A stretch of DNA of 64,000 nucleotides, from the NCBI RefSeq assembly GCF_005952805.1, contig NZ_CP040709.1:1488001-1552000 (forward strand). The letters are read 5' to 3'. Below are positions 49,280 through 56,227 of the stretch, piece after piece. Origin of the DNA: Inhella inkyongensis (GTDB lineage Bacteria > Pseudomonadota > Gammaproteobacteria > Burkholderiales > Burkholderiaceae_C). The notes under the pieces were generated by a model. The model made no database searches, was not told the DNA's origin, and saw only the letters and a program-made list of their open reading frames with translations. A program made the position numbers and the translations under genes. How positions within the stretch are numbered: position 1 is the first letter of the stretch; every line of letters starts with the position of its first letter.

Positions 49280-49774
49280 TTAAAAAAGTTCGACGGAGCC
49301 GGCATCGACTTCGTCTTGCGTAACGGGATTGGGGCGCTGCGGCGCTTCGATGACAGCGGCTTCGCCATCCTCGTCGTCGCTGCCGAAGGCCTCGCGGGCC
49401 AGTTTGTCGGCGCAGGCGCGCAAGCGTTGGCTGGTGTGGGCGATCAGCTGGGTCGACATGTCCTGAAACTGCAGCGCCGTGATGGCGCCGGCAATGTCTT
49501 GCAGCACATCGACGAAGGCGCCGGGTTGCAGGACCTGGCCGCCGTTGACCTGTTGCGCCAAGTCTTGCAACTTGCCGGAGGCGCCGTAGAAGTGCGTCGA
49601 GAGGGCCTCGCCGGCATCGTCCAGCAAGCGCTGCAAACGCTCCAGGTCGTTGGTGACCGACATCAAGTGATCCTGGATTTCGGCCGCAGCGAGCAGGGTG
49701 AAGCGGGGCTCGAAATCGGCAGGTTCCTGCACATCCAGATTGGATGCTTCGTCGGGCGGTGCTTGTCCCTGCAT
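49280..49774 (-). CDS. cheZ: CheZ-like protein, putative CheY-P phosphatase
   Basis: 164 residues, shorter than E. coli CheZ (214). It is predicted long-helical. The segment FQDMSTQLI aligns with FQDLTGQVI of CheZ, keeping the catalytic DxxxQ (Asp and Gln four apart). The C-terminal tail TQDEVDAGSVELF is linked by an acidic stretch and resembles the CheY-binding tail of CheZ; it shares QDEVDA with the N-terminus of FliM in this window. First gene of the che operon, immediately before cheY. The overall similarity is low, so the symbol is tentative. Confidence 0.7.
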   Translation of the reverse strand: MQGQAPPDEASNLDVQEPADFEPRFTLLAAAEIQDHLMSVTNDLERLQRLLDDAGEALSTHFYGASGKLQDLAQQVNGGQVLQPGAFVDVLQDIAGAITALQFQDMSTQLIAHTSQRLRACADKLAREAFGSDDEDGEAAVIEAPQRPNPVTQDEVDAGSVELF

Positions 49775-49953
49775 GGATCCTCCAAGGGCTCGTCCGAATG
49801 AGTCGGGCGGGCATTGCGGCGATGACGATTAGCCTAATCGAAGCCGGGCTCTTGATTGGGGCTGCGCGCCTAGGGTAATCCCTTTTGCAGCGTGCAAAGC
49901 ACAACAGGCTTTCCCGGCTTGGCGGGCCAAGGCTGCGCGGCATACTCAGCCGC

Positions 49954-51063
49954 ATGTTTGCCATCGATCCGACGCGTCCCTTGCGCGTATTGCATGTCGA
50001 GGATTCCGAGCTCGATCACGAACTGATGCAGGCGCTGGTGCGCCAGGCGGGTCTGCAGGTCGAGTGGTTGCGCGTCGAGTCGCTTGAAGAGTTTCAGAAG
50101 GCGCTGGCCCAGGACTGGGATGCCGTGGTGTGCGACTACCAGTTGCCTGCGCACTCCGGCCTGGACATGCTGCGCCATCTGCGCACGACCGATCGGGTGC
50201 TGCCCTTCATCCTGGTGTCCGGAGAGATTGGCGAGGATGTGGCCGTGGCGGCCATGCGCGAAGGGGCTGCGGACTACCTGCTGAAAGGGCGCCTGGCCCG
50301 TTTGGCGCCGGCCTTGCAGCAGGCCATCAAAGGGGCTGAGGCGGAGCGGGCGCAGCGCGCAGCGGATCAGGCCTTGCTGGAGAGTCAGCAGCGCCTGCGC
50401 GAGCTCACGGCCCATCTGCAACAGCACATCGAGGCGGAGCGTGCGGCGCTGGCGCGTGAACTGCATGACGATGTGGGCAGTTCGCTCACGGCGCTGAAAT
50501 ACGAGCTGGGTTGGTTGCAACGCCATCTGGCCGATGGGCCAGCGGCGGCGCGGGTGGTGCAGGCCACGCAGACCCTGGATTTGGCCATGGCCGCCAGCCG
50601 CCGGCTGATGCAGAACCTGCGCCCGCCCATCTTGCAAGAGGGCTTGGCCGCTGCGCTCACCTGGCAAGCGCAGGGCTTCGAGCGGCACCAGGGCCTCAAG
50701 GTGCATCGGCATGGATTGGATGAGGAGCTTGATTTGCCCGAGGGCCTGGCGCTGGCCGCTTATCGATTTGTGCAAGAAGCCTTGAACAACGTGGCCAAGC
50801 ACGCGCAGGCCAGCCAGGTATGGGTTGAGTTGCATTGCGCCAGCGGCGTGCTGGGGGTCGAGGTGGCGGACGATGGATGTGGCATGGACCCAATGGCCCA
50901 GCACCGGCCCGGCAGCTTTGGTCTGCAGGGTCTGCAGGAGCGCGCCGCGGCCCTGGGCGGGTGGATCGATGTGGGCTCGCGGCCCGGTCAGGGCACGCGC
51001 CTGACCCTGTCCATTCCCTTGGCCCACGCAGAACCGGCCTGGTCGGCCCAGGAGTGCGCATGA
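49954..51063 (+). CDS. Receiver-histidine kinase (HisKA_3 type)
   Basis: 369 residues from ATG 49954. An N-terminal receiver domain (about 8-125) has HVEDSE, phospho-acceptor Asp in VVCDYQLPAHSG and Lys in YLLKGRL. A coiled coil leads into the NarX-type kinase core with ARELHDDVGSSLTALK (phospho-His) and an ATPase with EALNNVAKHA and GSFGLQGLQERAAALGG. No transmembrane segment, so it is cytoplasmic and probably driven by another kinase. It overlaps the following regulator gene by 4 bp and heads a five-gene operon. Confidence 0.94.
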   Translation: MFAIDPTRPLRVLHVEDSELDHELMQALVRQAGLQVEWLRVESLEEFQKALAQDWDAVVCDYQLPAHSGLDMLRHLRTTDRVLPFILVSGEIGEDVAVAAMREGAADYLLKGRLARLAPALQQAIKGAEAERAQRAADQALLESQQRLRELTAHLQQHIEAERAALARELHDDVGSSLTALKYELGWLQRHLADGPAAARVVQATQTLDLAMAASRRLMQNLRPPILQEGLAAALTWQAQGFERHQGLKVHRHGLDEELDLPEGLALAAYRFVQEALNNVAKHAQASQVWVELHCASGVLGVEVADDGCGMDPMAQHRPGSFGLQGLQERAAALGGWIDVGSRPGQGTRLTLSIPLAHAEPAWSAQECA

Positions 51064-51698
51064 TTCGCGTGCTGCTTTGCGACGATCACGCGCTGATCCG
51101 GCGCGGTGTGCGCGACACCCTCGTCGACGCCGGCGACATCGAAGTGGTGGGTGAGGTGGGCGACTACGGCGGCCTGCGCGAGTGGCAGCGCGGCGGGCAG
51201 GCCGTCGATGTGCTGTTGCTCGACATCAATCTGCCGGGCCGCAGCGGCCTGGATGTGTTGCATGTTCTCAAGGAGCAAGGCGGCGGGCCGCGCTGCTTGG
51301 TGGTCTCCATGTATCCCGAGGAGCAGTACGCAATTCGCTGCCTGCGCGCTGGTGCCTTCGGCTATGTGAACAAGGGCGGCGATCCGCAGGAGTTGGTGAC
51401 GGCTGTGCGCATGGTGGCGCAGGGCCGCAAATACGTGACGCCGCAGATCGCCCAGATGCTGGTCGAGAACCTCAGTACCCCAGAGCCCGAGCAGGCCCAT
51501 CAAAAGCTCAGTGACCGGGAGCTGCAGACCCTGGTGTTGATTGCCTCAGGGCGGCGACTCTCTGACATTGCCGAGGAGCTGCTGCTCAGTCCCAAGACGG
51601 TCAGCGTCTATCGGGCGCGCGTGCTGGAAAAGTTGGGTCTGAGCAATAACTCGGAACTGACCGTGTATGCCATTCGGCAGGGCCTGGTGGACGGATGA
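51060..51698 (+). CDS. NarL/LuxR-type response regulator
   Basis: 212 residues from ATG 51060 (ATGA overlap with the kinase). The receiver has CDDH, phospho-acceptor Asp in LLDINLPGRSG and YVNKGG. The C-terminal LuxR helix-turn-helix shows LSDRELQTLVLIASG and SPKTVSVYRARVLEKLG. It is the cognate partner of the upstream kinase and may control this operon or distant attachment/motility genes (inference). It overlaps the diguanylate cyclase gene by 4 bp. Confidence 0.95.
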   Translation: MIRVLLCDDHALIRRGVRDTLVDAGDIEVVGEVGDYGGLREWQRGGQAVDVLLLDINLPGRSGLDVLHVLKEQGGGPRCLVVSMYPEEQYAIRCLRAGAFGYVNKGGDPQELVTAVRMVAQGRKYVTPQIAQMLVENLSTPEPEQAHQKLSDRELQTLVLIASGRRLSDIAEELLLSPKTVSVYRARVLEKLGLSNNSELTVYAIRQGLVDG

Positions 51699-52939
51699 GA
51701 GGCCCGTCGCGCCCGATGTCGCTGGTTCGGCGGCTTACGCACCTGAATGTGCTGGTGCTGGCCGTGGCCATGTTGCTGAGTTTTGCCATGATTTTGGGCA
51801 TGGCGTATTGGACGGCGCGGCAGCTTCAGCGGCAGGCGGCAGAGGCGGCTGCTGCCGTGTTGGCGCAGAACGTGGCACCGATGGTGGCGTTCCAGGACCG
51901 CGCCAGCGCCAAGTCCATGTTGACCGATGTGGCACGGCGTACCGATCTGCTGGAAGTGAACATCGTCGATGCCCAGGGGCGCTTGTTCGCTGCGTGGACC
52001 AGCAAGATTCCTCAGCAGGGTTGGCTGCCTTGGGTACAGCGCGAATTCACGGTGGAGCTGGCCCTGCAATTGCCGGAGGAAAAGGTCGGTCGCATGCGCT
52101 GGCGCGAGTCGCATGCAACGCTGGAGAACACTTTGCTGCGCATCGGCCTGATCGCCTTTGCCATGTTGCTCGGCATCCTGATCGTGGCTGCGAACGTGTT
52201 GAGCTGGGTGCAGCGCCGGGCCTTGGCGCCCCTGGTGGCACTGTCCGACCTGACCGAGCGGGTGGCGCAGCAGCAGGACTACACCCTGCGGGCGCGCGCA
52301 CTTCGCAATGACGAGGTAGGACGGCTGGCCGAGCGTGTCAATGAAATGCTGCGCCGCATCCAGGTTTGGCATGAGGATCTGCATGCGCAGTTGCGCGATC
52401 AGCGCGATGTGGGCCAGCGCATGAAGGCGCTGGCGCACCGGGATCACCTCACGGGTCTTCCCAACCGCCTGTCCTTTGACCTGGAGTTGGAGCGCCAGCT
52501 GGTGGAAGCCCAGCGACAGCGCCACGGCGTGGGCCTGCTGTTTGTCGACCTTGACCAGTTCAAGCCCGTCAACGATCGGCTGGGCCATGAGGCCGGCGAT
52601 GCCGTGCTGATTGAAGTGGGGCGGCGCATGTCGGGTGCGCTGCGTGCGGGCCAAGACAATTTGTTCCGACTTGGTGGCGATGAATTCGCGCTGCTGGTGG
52701 CACCCTTGGCCGACGCCCACGCGCTGGAGCACCTGGCGCAGCGCCTGTTGCAGGCCTTGCTGCCGCCGATGAATCTGTTGGGTGAATCGATTCAGCTGGG
52801 AGCCAGTATTGGCGCGGCCATCAGCCCAGAGCATGGGCGGGACGCCGCGCTGTTGTTGCGGCGCGCCGATGCCGCCATGTATGCGGCCAAGTCGGCCGGG
52901 AAAAATTGCTATCGTCTGGCCGATGCCGCGTCCGCCTAA
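51695..52939 (+). CDS. YfiN-like membrane diguanylate cyclase (CHASE8-HAMP-GGDEF)
   Basis: 414 residues from ATG 51695 (ATGA overlap); ATG 51716 is an alternative. TM1 is about 18-40, a periplasmic CHASE8-type domain (about 45-145), TM2 (about 150-172), HAMP (about 172-225) and a GGDEF domain with FRLGGDEF. This is the YfiN/TpbB layout, and a YfiR-like gene is in the same operon, which fits repression of the cyclase by periplasmic YfiR. The usual inhibitory RxxD is shifted (RAGQD), so product inhibition is probably weak. Confidence 0.92.
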   Translation: MRGPSRPMSLVRRLTHLNVLVLAVAMLLSFAMILGMAYWTARQLQRQAAEAAAAVLAQNVAPMVAFQDRASAKSMLTDVARRTDLLEVNIVDAQGRLFAAWTSKIPQQGWLPWVQREFTVELALQLPEEKVGRMRWRESHATLENTLLRIGLIAFAMLLGILIVAANVLSWVQRRALAPLVALSDLTERVAQQQDYTLRARALRNDEVGRLAERVNEMLRRIQVWHEDLHAQLRDQRDVGQRMKALAHRDHLTGLPNRLSFDLELERQLVEAQRQRHGVGLLFVDLDQFKPVNDRLGHEAGDAVLIEVGRRMSGALRAGQDNLFRLGGDEFALLVAPLADAHALEHLAQRLLQALLPPMNLLGESIQLGASIGAAISPEHGRDAALLLRRADAAMYAAKSAGKNCYRLADAASA

Positions 52940-54908
52940 ACGATGTTGGATTGGCCTGAGCGCCCTGCTGTGTGCAGCTTGGGGCGCGCCGGCACAGGCC
53001 AGCACGGCGGCGGATGAACCGGGAGATCTGGCCGATCTGCTGCGCCAGTCGTTGAGCCAACCCAGTGCGGAGCTCGCCGTCAGCACGGCCTCGCGCATGG
53101 CGCAATCGGCGGCCCAAGCGCCTGGCGTCACCCATGTGGTGACCCAGCTGGACATCCAACGGCTGGGCCTGCGCAGCCTGGCCGACATCCTGCAACTCTT
53201 CCCAGGCGTCTATTTGCGGGAGGACAGCCTGTTCACCAAGCTGGGCGTGCGCGGCGTCGGGCGCCCGGGCGACCTCAACAGCCGGGTGTTGTTCCTGCTG
53301 GATGGCATGCGCCTGAACGAGAACATCTTCGAGGCCGGGCAGATCGATCAGGACTTCTTGGTCGATGTCAGCCTGATCGAGCGGGTCGAGTTCAGTCCGG
53401 GTCCGGGCTCTTCGCTGTATGGCACCAATGCCCTGCTGGGGGTGGTGCAGGTGGTCACCAAGCGGGCGGATCAGCTGCATGGTGCCCAGATCGGCTCCAG
53501 TTGGAGTGGCCGTGGCAGCTGGCGCAGCCACGCGGCCTATGGCTTGCGGCACGAGTCCGGCGCCGAGTGGTGGTTGGCGGCCAGCGCGCTGGAGTTTCCC
53601 GAGCAGCGCTATCCCGCTGACTTGTCCGAGCGCCTGCAAACACTGTTGCGGCGCTTCAACTGGGACCGCAGCAAACGTTTGAATGGGCACTGGCAGCAGG
53701 GCGGACTGTCGCTGGCCGCCGGCGTGGTGGATCGGACCCATGGCTTGCCGGAACCGGTGGAGAACGCTGCGGGCAATTTCGTGCTGATGCAGAAGTTCGA
53801 TCGCACCACCATCCGTTACGGGCAGTTGCGCTGGGAGCAGGCGCTGAACGCCGATTGGCAGATGGAGCTGGGCTGGTCGACGCAGAGCTTGCGCTACCGC
53901 CTGGATGAGCCCTTCCTGACCTCGCGCGATCAGCCACGCATGTACCGCTTCGAAACGCTGGGCCATTGGTCCAACGGCGAAGCGCGGCTGTTGGGCAATT
54001 GGGCGCAGGACCATGAGCTGATGCTGGGCCTGGAAACCCAGCGCGACCACCGGCAGCGCATTCGCTTTGAGGTGCTGGGTTTGCCCCCCGATGACCTCGA
54101 GCGGCGTTCGGAACGCTGGGGCTTGTTTGCCCAGGACAGTTGGCGGATCAGTGCCGGGCATCGCCTCACGCTCGGTTTGCGGCATGACCGCGCGGCGGGG
54201 GATGTGGCCGCGCGCACCAGCCCGCGCGTCGCCTATGTCTGGCACGACGAACAGGGCCGCAGCCTCAAGCTCAGTGTCGGCAATGCCTTTCGTGCTGCCA
54301 ATTTCAATGAAAGCCTGAACAACGAGATCCAGGACGTGGCGGCGCCGCCCCCCGAGCGCCTGCGCAGCCATGAGCTGCTGTGGGAGGCCCGACTCACGCA
54401 GGGCTGGCGTTACCGCGCCGGCCTGTTTGACACCCGCATCCGCAATCTGATCGATCAGGATCCGGACTCCGGTCTGTACCAGGCCAGCGCGCCGGTGCGC
54501 AGCCGTGGCGCCGAGCTGGAGCTGGATGGCCGCTGGGGCCAAGGCGGCTCGGCCTTGCTGAGCCTGGCCTGGCAGCAAAGCCGCTATGCCGATGGGCAGG
54601 CGCTGTCCAACAGCCCCGCGCGCATGCTCAAGCTGCGTCTGACCCATCCGGTGGCCGAGTCCTTGCGCGTGTCGCTGCACGGCCGGGCGCTCAGCCGCCG
54701 TGTGGTGGCGGGCCGCGAGTTGGCGGGCTATGGCCTGCTCAATCTGCAACTGCTCTACCAGCCAACGCGCCAGCTCGACATCAGCCTGGGCGTTAACAAC
54801 CTGCTCAATCGGCGCTATTTCGACGCCCCAGGCAGTAGCGGCGGCAACCCGGTTCCGCATGAAGGCGGACAGGCCCATCTGGGCTTTCAATGGCGCCTCG
54901 ACCCATGA
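52923..54908 (+). CDS. TonB-dependent outer-membrane receptor
   Basis: 661 residues from ATG 52923, which overlaps the cyclase gene by 17 bp. The signal peptide is about residues 1-26 (ends AQAS). An N-terminal stretch with a TonB-box-like ELAVSTASR is followed by the plug domain (SLADILQLFPGVYLR, then VRGVGRPGDLNSRVLFLLDGM and SSLYGTNALLGVVQVVTKR) and the beta-barrel to the C-terminus. The ligand is unknown. Its position inside a YfiN/YfiR operon suggests a signal receptor for c-di-GMP rather than plain nutrient uptake (inference). Confidence 0.93.
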   Translation: MPRPPKRCWIGLSALLCAAWGAPAQASTAADEPGDLADLLRQSLSQPSAELAVSTASRMAQSAAQAPGVTHVVTQLDIQRLGLRSLADILQLFPGVYLREDSLFTKLGVRGVGRPGDLNSRVLFLLDGMRLNENIFEAGQIDQDFLVDVSLIERVEFSPGPGSSLYGTNALLGVVQVVTKRADQLHGAQIGSSWSGRGSWRSHAAYGLRHESGAEWWLAASALEFPEQRYPADLSERLQTLLRRFNWDRSKRLNGHWQQGGLSLAAGVVDRTHGLPEPVENAAGNFVLMQKFDRTTIRYGQLRWEQALNADWQMELGWSTQSLRYRLDEPFLTSRDQPRMYRFETLGHWSNGEARLLGNWAQDHELMLGLETQRDHRQRIRFEVLGLPPDDLERRSERWGLFAQDSWRISAGHRLTLGLRHDRAAGDVAARTSPRVAYVWHDEQGRSLKLSVGNAFRAANFNESLNNEIQDVAAPPPERLRSHELLWEARLTQGWRYRAGLFDTRIRNLIDQDPDSGLYQASAPVRSRGAELELDGRWGQGGSALLSLAWQQSRYADGQALSNSPARMLKLRLTHPVAESLRVSLHGRALSRRVVAGRELAGYGLLNLQLLYQPTRQLDISLGVNNLLNRRYFDAPGSSGGNPVPHEGGQAHLGFQWRLDP

Positions 54909-55420
54909 AGGCCCGCGCCGCGCTCTGTCTGGCAGCCGCCCTGGCCACCAGCCCGCTGTGTCAGGCGCAACTCGGTGTGGATGCCGATGCCCAGCTGCGT
55001 GCGGCCTTTATCTATCGCTTCGCCCAGTTCACTCAGTGGCCGGCTGATTCGTCCGGCATGAACCTGTGCATGGCCGGGCCGGGGGGCATGGAGGAGGCGC
55101 TGCGCCAGCTCGGCGGCCGCTTGGTGGCCGGGCAGCCACTAAACTTCCGCGTGGTGGACTCGCCGCGGGAAGCGGCCAGCTGTCAGGTGCTGGTGCTGGG
55201 GCAGAGCGACCCCGCCACGCTGCGGCGCTGGTTGCAGGGCCTGGGCGATGCGCCGGTGCTGGTGGTGGGTCTGGTGCCCGAGGCGCTGCGTGCTGGGGTC
55301 AGCATCGCGCTGCTGGCCGAGCCTCAGGGCCTGGCCTTCAGCATCAACCACAGCGAGGCCAAGCGGCGCGGATTGGCCCTGTCTGGACAGATGCTGAAGT
55401 TGGCGCGCGAAGTCAGGTGA
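54905..55420 (+). CDS. YfiR family (DUF4154) periplasmic protein
   Basis: 171 residues from ATG 54905 (ATGA overlap). The signal peptide is about 1-21 (ends CQAQ). The mature start DAQLRAAFIYRFAQFTQWPAD is the hallmark of the YfiR family, which forms redox-sensitive dimers that inhibit the cyclase YfiN. Two cysteines are visible in the mature protein (NLCMAGP and ASCQVLV). It is the last gene of the operon and abuts the convergent fliR gene with no gap. Confidence 0.93.
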   Translation: MKARAALCLAAALATSPLCQAQLGVDADAQLRAAFIYRFAQFTQWPADSSGMNLCMAGPGGMEEALRQLGGRLVAGQPLNFRVVDSPREAASCQVLVLGQSDPATLRRWLQGLGDAPVLVVGLVPEALRAGVSIALLAEPQGLAFSINHSEAKRRGLALSGQMLKLAREVR

Positions 55421-56185
55421 TCAACTAAAGGCCCCCAGCAGGCGCGCCAATGTCTGCTCCAGCGGCACCTGCATCAAGGGCAGGGTGGCCACCAGGCCTA
55501 GAAGGCCCAGGCTCACCGTGATCGGAAAGCCGACCGCAAACACATGAATCTGCGGCGCCACCCGCGACACCACGCCCAGCGCCAGGTTGACGAACAGCAA
55601 CAAGGCCACCACCGGCATCGCAATCCATAGCCCCGCGCGGAAGATCTCGGCGCCCCAGGTCTGCGCCTGGGCTGTGCGCAAGAAGGCGAAGGGCTCGGGC
55701 CCCACCGGGAATGCATGAAAGCTCTGGGCCAGGGCCTGGATGAGCATCAGATGACCATTGCCCACCACGAACAGGAAGGCCACCAGGGTGCCGAAGAAGC
55801 GCGCCGTCGCAGTGCCTTGCATGCCGGTGCCGGGATCAAAGAAGCCGGCGAAGTTCAGGCCCATCTGCAAGCCCACCAATTCGCCGGCGAACTCCAGCGC
55901 GGCGAAGACCACGCGCACCGCAAAGCCCATCGTCAGGCCGATCACCAGTTGTTGGCCGATCAGCAAAAGCAGCAGCGGCAGGCTGTCCAGTGGCAGCACC
56001 GGCATCGGCGGCAGGCTGGGCTGGGCCGCCACGGCGAAGAACAGGGCCAGCCCGATGCGCACCCGCATCGGCACATTGCGCTGACTGAACAGCGGCATGC
56101 CGGTCAGCAGGGCCAGACAGCGCAGAAAGGGCCAGAGCAACGGCGCGAGCCAGGCCAGGATCTGTGCTTCAGTAAAGCCGATCAT
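55421..56185 (-). CDS. fliR: Flagellar export apparatus protein FliR
   Basis: 254 residues from ATG 56185. Six membrane helices are visible. FliR is part of the FliPQR core export gate in the inner membrane. It is the last gene of the fliH-fliR operon; a 162-bp gap with two strong hairpins separates it from fliQ. Its stop abuts the YfiR gene stop on the other strand. Confidence 0.95.
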   Translation of the reverse strand: MIGFTEAQILAWLAPLLWPFLRCLALLTGMPLFSQRNVPMRVRIGLALFFAVAAQPSLPPMPVLPLDSLPLLLLLIGQQLVIGLTMGFAVRVVFAALEFAGELVGLQMGLNFAGFFDPGTGMQGTATARFFGTLVAFLFVVGNGHLMLIQALAQSFHAFPVGPEPFAFLRTAQAQTWGAEIFRAGLWIAMPVVALLLFVNLALGVVSRVAPQIHVFAVGFPITVSLGLLGLVATLPLMQVPLEQTLARLLGAFS

Positions 56186-56227
56186 GGTGGGGGTGCGGGC
56201 GCCGGGCCGCTCCCAAGCCCGCACGTG

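Follow-up and report, generated by a model that had tools for sequence, protein, structure and literature searches.

A window of 64,000 nucleotides from Inhella inkyongensis (contig NZ_CP040709.1, positions 1,488,001 to 1,552,000) contains a five-gene operon, at 49954–55420 on the + strand, which codes for a histidine kinase with a receiver (REC) domain, a NarL-type regulator, a diguanylate cyclase of CHASE8–HAMP–GGDEF architecture, a TonB-dependent receptor and a YfiR-like protein of the DUF4154 family. We propose that this operon is a TonB-receptor-gated switch for cyclic di-guanosine monophosphate (c-di-GMP), in which the ligand-bound receptor relieves the repression of the cyclase by YfiR; we lean slightly towards this mechanism. 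Where such a c-di-GMP switch usually has an envelope-stress sensor, a surface receptor appears to stand. The observations behind the proposal are the gene order and its conservation, the domains, the preserved contact residues between YfiR and CHASE8, the lack of YfiB, and the co-inheritance of receptor and YfiR. A broader reading, for which we see the balance as even, is that across Pseudomonadota a TonB-dependent receptor is a more frequent outer-membrane partner of YfiR than any other, YfiB included. YfiBNR would then be a single branch of a larger ligand-sensing class, whose receptors use a dedicated N-terminal periplasmic segment to report external molecules via YfiR and CHASE8 to kinases or cyclases, and the operon of the window would represent the form in which the signal is written straight into c-di-GMP, next to motility genes.

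A receptor-linked lineage of YfiR proteins

The successive open reading frames (ORFs) of the operon overlap by 4, 4, 17 and 4 bp (the last overlap is 19 bp if the YfiR-like gene starts at 54890). The ORF calls and the Pfam matches agree with the initial annotation, made from the sequence of the window, which had described five genes overlapping by 4–17 bp with these domain types; its placing of the operon between chemotaxis and flagellar operons also holds, with cheAYZ on one side and fliR to fliM on the other. It had called for a survey of DUF4154 neighbourhoods and had made its reading depend on the five genes occurring together in related genomes. They do occur together: a search with the YfiR protein gave 22 related loci, of which 16 have all five genes in the same order beside cheZ, a recurrence which indicates that the arrangement is more than chance. 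The fliR gene directly adjoins the operon in four of these 16 (L034, L048, L050 and L051; L and G numbers are our labels for loci and genomes). The full set is also found in G021, and in G007 and G013, where cheZ is outside the view; G013 and L055 are probably one genome, their YfiR domains being identical. As for the other six related loci, two contain only the receptor and YfiR genes (L035 and L041), two are truncated at contig ends (L037 and L045), L053 has a receptor–YfiR–CHASE8-GGDEF-EAL form and L054 has a YfiR–CHASE8-kinase form without a receptor. The receptor–YfiR pairs of L035 (5806–8459) and L041 (5764–8447) have no CHASE8 partner within the stretch. A five-gene operon (L047) is present in the strain of L041 too, and two receptors may feed one cyclase there.

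DUF4154 occurs in 94 of the 398 genomes of a phylum sample. Outside the genome of the window there were 123 DUF4154 rows, of which 120 were taken and 119 analysed (L229 gave no match to the profile); some genomes contribute several rows, G161 as many as seven. Twenty stretches from the family, picked to settle unclear cases, were read at length and stand outside the 119. Genes were classified with profiles built on proteins of the window and of the loci, and seven proteins of other loci were checked against Pfam. A TonB receptor is a same-strand neighbour of the DUF4154 gene at 72 of the 119 loci and lies elsewhere in the stretch at 4; a gene with an OmpA domain is present at 16, and no locus has both. 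The same holds when the count is restricted to the 98 loci whose contigs extend 2.5 kb or more upstream and 3.5 kb or more downstream (the other 21 do not have enough contig and were omitted): 59 have a receptor neighbour, 4 a receptor elsewhere, 15 an OmpA-domain gene, 20 neither and 0 both. The probability of zero overlap in these 98 loci is 1.8e-8 when they are treated as independent, a figure which relatedness makes optimistic. Where the receptor gene is a neighbour on the same strand (59 loci), it is directly upstream of that of YfiR in 46 cases. When the phylum and family picks are pooled, receptor neighbours are found in 21 family codes and OmpA neighbours in 5, and the distances between receptors follow those between YfiR proteins (r 0.67 over 89 loci, with a permutation maximum of 0.08).

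The output at the 72 receptor-neighbour loci is most often a CHASE8 histidine kinase (47 loci); at the remaining loci it is a GGDEF-EAL or GGDEF protein or a fused kinase, or else CHASE8 is cut or no output was found. These comparisons place the operon of the window, with its cyclase output, in a wide receptor–YfiR–CHASE8 class in which, within the sample, histidine kinases are the most frequent output. The genome of the window has a second locus of the class beside mutS (G000:C1:2506451-2514709, L005:1452-9710), with a receptor, YfiR, a CHASE8 hybrid kinase, a response regulator and a GGDEF-EAL protein. There are 20 Plug-domain matches in the 4.08 Mb of this genome, so that chance would not be expected to place a receptor beside each of its two DUF4154 genes. 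At L121, a receptor and YfiR stand beside receiver-GGDEF and receiver-GGDEF-EAL genes with no CHASE8 match, and this YfiR may have another target.

Phylogeny separates the two kinds of system. In a DUF4154 tree built with a quick method (162 rows, 146 columns), the 25 OmpA-labelled rows fall in one group of 27 rows that has no receptor-linked member (SH-aLRT, the Shimodaira–Hasegawa-like approximate likelihood ratio test, 99). This tree omits domain sequences of 100 residues or fewer, and receptor-linked means, in all the trees, that a receptor is anywhere in the stretch. The 25 rows are 24 loci and the YfiR of Pseudomonas aeruginosa, which we take to be OmpA-linked. The CHASE8 tree groups 24 OmpA rows with one other (SH-aLRT 100), the GGDEF tree groups 24 OmpA rows (support 79), and each of the three trees requires one change between OmpA and receptor labels. 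The window is among the receptor-linked rows in all three; its YfiR is in a 25-row group (99) which also contains L196, a locus with a cyclase, a receptor and YfiR whose genome belongs to the same class but to another family. Both types of system are found, unmixed, within one genome in G007 and G013, and also in G004 and G058 when the locus tables are combined. Since the lineages are separate and some genomes have both, the swapping of one part of a YfiBNR does not account for this operon; the replacement of YfiB by a receptor inside a YfiBNR operon is rejected on the three trees.

The initial annotation had stated that the receptor takes the place of YfiB, and had named a separate yfiB gene elsewhere as what would undermine this. 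The statement stands in so far as a receptor gene is found where YfiBNR has yfiB and no protein of the genome reaches the YfiB cut-off; it does not stand as a substitution within YfiBNR. Pfam finds no OmpA-like lipoprotein in the operon, and a hidden yfiB was discarded, the best of the four OmpA-domain proteins of the genome scoring 100.3 bits with the YfiB model (cut-off 128) and each of the four scoring above the threshold of some other family (OmpA, Pal, PRK09040 and MotB).

Residues known from YfiBNR were compared between the two kinds of system (for their contact roles, see PMC3375315, PMC4655355 and PMC4887326). The equivalent of YfiN Phe70, in the site thought in the literature to contact YfiR, is Phe in all receptor-linked (92/92) and all OmpA-linked (24/24) CHASE8 domains, and YfiR Phe162 is Phe in 91 of the 109 receptor-linked and 23 of the 24 OmpA-linked proteins. 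Cys71 and Cys110 of YfiR are present in 24/24 OmpA-linked proteins and each in 77/109 receptor-linked ones. On the contrary, Cys145 and Cys152, which all 24 OmpA-linked proteins have, are nearly gone in the receptor-linked ones (1/109 and 0/109, respectively). The YfiR of the window keeps the equivalents of Cys71 and Cys110, and lacks those of Cys145 and Cys152. With the two Phe residues largely kept and the second cysteine pair and Pro178 lost, the YfiR–CHASE8 interface is, to judge from the alignments, preserved, while part of the YfiB-facing side and a stabilising disulfide are not.

The receptor, the proposed switch and its alternatives

The best sequence match of the receptor family profile in the PDB is the colicin I receptor, and the best Foldseek match of the predicted model (predicted local distance difference test, pLDDT, 92.4) is BtuB, followed by several siderophore receptors; the ligand is not inferable from these sequence and fold matches. 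Before the plug, linked receptors have a segment with the rough consensus LEDLL.MSLEEL...EVTTASR, whose end in the window is presumably a TonB-box-like stretch, as read by eye. A profile built from 24 linked receptors, over their N-terminus and plug, was run on 60 genomes of the family, a search that is partly circular since 6 of the 24 training rows come from the same family and 4 more from named close relatives: among the matches listed above 130 bits, 22 of 23 are within 3 kb of a DUF4154 gene, and among the 63 matches listed at 95.8 bits or more, the match starts at model position 8 or before in 24/24 linked and 4/39 unlinked receptors. Nine of the 33 DUF4154 places in the family genomes are without such a receptor; eight are OmpA-type loci and one (L246) has another kind of receptor. 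A profile made from 65 receptors outside the family was then applied to 50 loci, 17 linked and 33 unlinked (L101 and L254 being one gene), and 13 linked receptors rank first. A hand-made regular expression for the segment, which matched 37 of 107 linked receptors and not that of the window, was replaced by these profiles. Scored in this way, the segment is a good mark of the class.

In the mechanism that we favour, the periplasmic YfiR-like protein would bind the CHASE8 domain of the cyclase, probably located in the inner membrane, and hold it inactive. Upon binding an external ligand, the outer-membrane receptor would act on YfiR, directly or via its N-terminal periplasmic segment; the cyclase would be released, c-di-GMP would rise and the sessile state would be favoured. 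The REC–kinase and the NarL-type regulator would most likely control the transcription of the operon, perhaps via a conserved upstream dyad. Ligand gating, the sign of the response, the contact between receptor and YfiR, and autoregulation are all inferred.

Several results weigh against this mechanism or the class on which it draws. Neither a receptor nor an OmpA-domain gene is found in the stretch at 27 of the 119 loci. The mutual exclusion of the two partners is essentially one evolutionary split and not 98 independent observations, and YfiR distances track those of CHASE8 (r 0.77) better than those of the receptor (r 0.67). The outside-family profile places four linked receptors, all from five-gene operons, below the best unlinked one (14.5 bits); that of the window is among them (11.3 bits), so that the segment is a weak mark for this operon. 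Pro178, which is near the pocket that takes Phe57 of YfiB, is present in 22 of 24 OmpA-linked and in 1 of 109 receptor-linked YfiR proteins. Last, DUF4154 is fused to a histidine kinase in L204, L217, L222, L224, L225 and L226 (L204 and L224 were checked with Pfam), with a receptor beside it in L204, L222 and L224; a YfiR fused to a kinase cannot be removed to the outer membrane, and sequestration in the manner of YfiB is therefore not general in the class.

These fusions, together with a fold like that of substrate-binding proteins, keep alive a ligand relay, in which the receptor imports the signal molecule and YfiR itself binds it as a small sensor with no need for a contact between the two. 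We consider this unlikely, though it is the most serious competitor: the affinities measured for YfiR are very weak, and the recurrent N-terminal segment of the linked receptors suggests that they do more than transport. The relay overlaps with the possibility that the sign is the opposite one, the ligand-bound receptor strengthening the repression by YfiR so that c-di-GMP falls and swimming is favoured; our estimates for the two are not meant to be exclusive. The sequence does not fix the sign, and a position between chemotaxis and flagellar genes fits either. However, the outer-membrane partner of YfiBNR counteracts YfiR (PMC2837407), which makes relief the simpler default and a reversed sign improbable in our opinion.

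We give still less credit to the idea that the receptor is merely a co-regulated uptake gene, while YfiR and the cyclase sense another cue such as the redox state or envelope stress. It is true that HmsC, a YfiR of the YfiBNR type, responds to redox via its cysteines (PMC5550408), that the YfiR of the window keeps the Cys71/Cys110 pair, and that the loci with neither partner fit such a view. Yet the linkage to a receptor spans many families and several output types, the linked receptors are a recognisable subgroup, and it is the second cysteine pair, invariant in OmpA-linked proteins, that has nearly vanished from the receptor-linked ones. The receptor-gated switch remains the reading that we prefer.

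Features of the operon and its control region

Coordinates of the operon genes, flanking genes and candidate elements in the window
Feature	Position	Strand	Basis or remark
REC–histidine kinase	49954–51063	+	Pfam Response_reg, HisKA_3, HATPase_c above cut-off; first operon gene in 16/22 related loci
NarL/UvrY-type response regulator (REC–GerE)	51060–51698	+	Pfam (Response_reg, GerE) and NCBIfam
CHASE8–HAMP–GGDEF diguanylate cyclase, YfiN-like	51695–52939	+	Pfam CHASE8, HAMP, GGDEF
TonB-dependent receptor, plug and barrel	52923–54908	+	Pfam Plug, TonB_dep_Rec
N-terminal periplasmic segment LADLLRQSL...LAVSTASR, before the plug	53028–53096	+	Candidate contact element
YfiR-like periplasmic protein	54905–55420 (possible earlier start 54890)	+	Pfam DUF4154, 117.5 bits; signal peptide read by eye
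Left flank: cheZ, then cheY, cheA	49280–49774 (cheZ)	-	
Right flank: fliR, then fliP, fliN, fliM	55421–56224 (fliR)	-	
Dyad AGGGT-WWW-CCCT	49872–49883	.	Candidate site of the operon's own NarL-type regulator
-10-like box CATACT	49941–49946	+	7 nt before the ATG (49954)

The names of the flanking genes were read off the sequences, and the same genes later served as profile seeds. No sensor domain is found among the Pfam matches of the kinase. The CHASE8 match of the cyclase (43.6 bits, cut-off 27) spans profile positions 3–67 of 102, and the protein scores 257.9 bits with the DgcN/YfiN model, under the equivalog cut-off of 325; its best solved relative is the diguanylate cyclase TpbB, the YfiN of P. 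aeruginosa. The GGDEF motif is intact, and the RxxD inhibitory site is broken by one additional residue (RAGQD). All other rows of its 21-row GGDEF group have RxxD.

The core of the dyad, AGGGTWWWCCC, is found in 14 of 18 orthologous intergenic regions between cheZ and the kinase gene, against a mean of 0.03 in 300 mononucleotide shuffles. Taken in the window alone, the dyad is not significant (10 of 100 shuffles score as high with one mismatch allowed). The pattern AGGGTWWWCCCT has two matches genome-wide; the reversed pattern used as a control also matches once, so that the rarity of the dyad adds no support, and the second match (G000:C1:607101-607112) was dropped as a clue to a regulon for the same reason. 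The ORFs within 3 kb of this match have no evident link to motility or c-di-GMP. We read the dyad as a candidate binding site of the NarL-type regulator. The sequence GCATACT, followed by an ATG 6–8 nt later, is present in 18/18 orthologous regions, an arrangement which we read as a putative promoter giving a likely leaderless transcript.

Comparison with known systems

The operon resembles the YfiBNR/HmsCDE systems of P. aeruginosa, E. coli and Y. pestis by its periplasmic protein of the YfiR fold and by its CHASE8–HAMP–GGDEF cyclase, in which the Phe of the YfiR-binding site is conserved. It differs from them in that a TonB receptor is found where YfiBNR has the OmpA/Pal-like YfiB, its YfiR is without the Cys145–Cys152 pair, the system forms part of a separate lineage in three trees, and the operon contains its own two-component pair. 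YfiNR systems without YfiB, with kinase or GGDEF-EAL outputs, are described by Malone et al. 2012 (PMC3375315), who left the input open and suggested that YfiR itself may take it; the main text of this paper has 0 occurrences of TonB. Our systems are like these in the combination of YfiR with a CHASE8/PAS-domain protein, a variable output and no YfiB, and unlike them in that we propose the TonB receptor as the missing input partner.

NCBIfam has models for a TOL_0244 TonB receptor (NF053590), a TOL_0243 YfiR-like protein (NF053591) and a YfiR-associated histidine kinase (NF053592). The name of the last ties the kinase to the YfiR-like protein, and the neighbouring tags TOL_0243 and TOL_0244 suggest that the curators knew of the receptor as a neighbour too. 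The proteins of the window score below all three cut-offs (98.8/645, 83.2/125 and 95/194 bits, respectively); at L139, the receptor (710.3 bits) and the YfiR-like protein (138.4) pass, while the kinase fails (96 against 194). The window is like this class in that its receptor gene adjoins the DUF4154 gene, with a 4-bp overlap, and in its position on the receptor side of the trees; it is unlike the set of the models (receptor, YfiR-like protein and CHASE8-type kinase) in that its output is a cyclase. We did not find a link between YfiR and a TonB receptor in print in the open-licence literature: there is none in passages of a paper on PrhA of Ralstonia (PMC11925246), nor in those of a paper on single-domain substrate-binding proteins (PMC10805632), where YfiR, TonB and DUF4154 have 0 occurrences. 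To what was known we add the measured split between partner types, the five-gene form with a cyclase output next to chemotaxis genes, the contrast in residues and the segment of the receptors.

Signalling from a TonB receptor in the outer membrane to a partner in the periplasm is known from transducing systems of the FecA–FecR–FecI type, and we propose the same here. Unlike a FecA-type transducer, the receptor of the window has only plug and barrel and no N-terminal STN domain, and no STN, FecR or sigma-factor family is found above the Pfam cut-off in the five proteins (the helix-turn-helix of the regulator gives a hit to Sigma70_r4_2 below it). If the TonB receptor is the input of YfiNR systems without YfiB, external molecules would set a c-di-GMP or phosphorelay output via YfiR, and this would add a route by which TonB receptors signal without an anti-sigma or a sigma factor.
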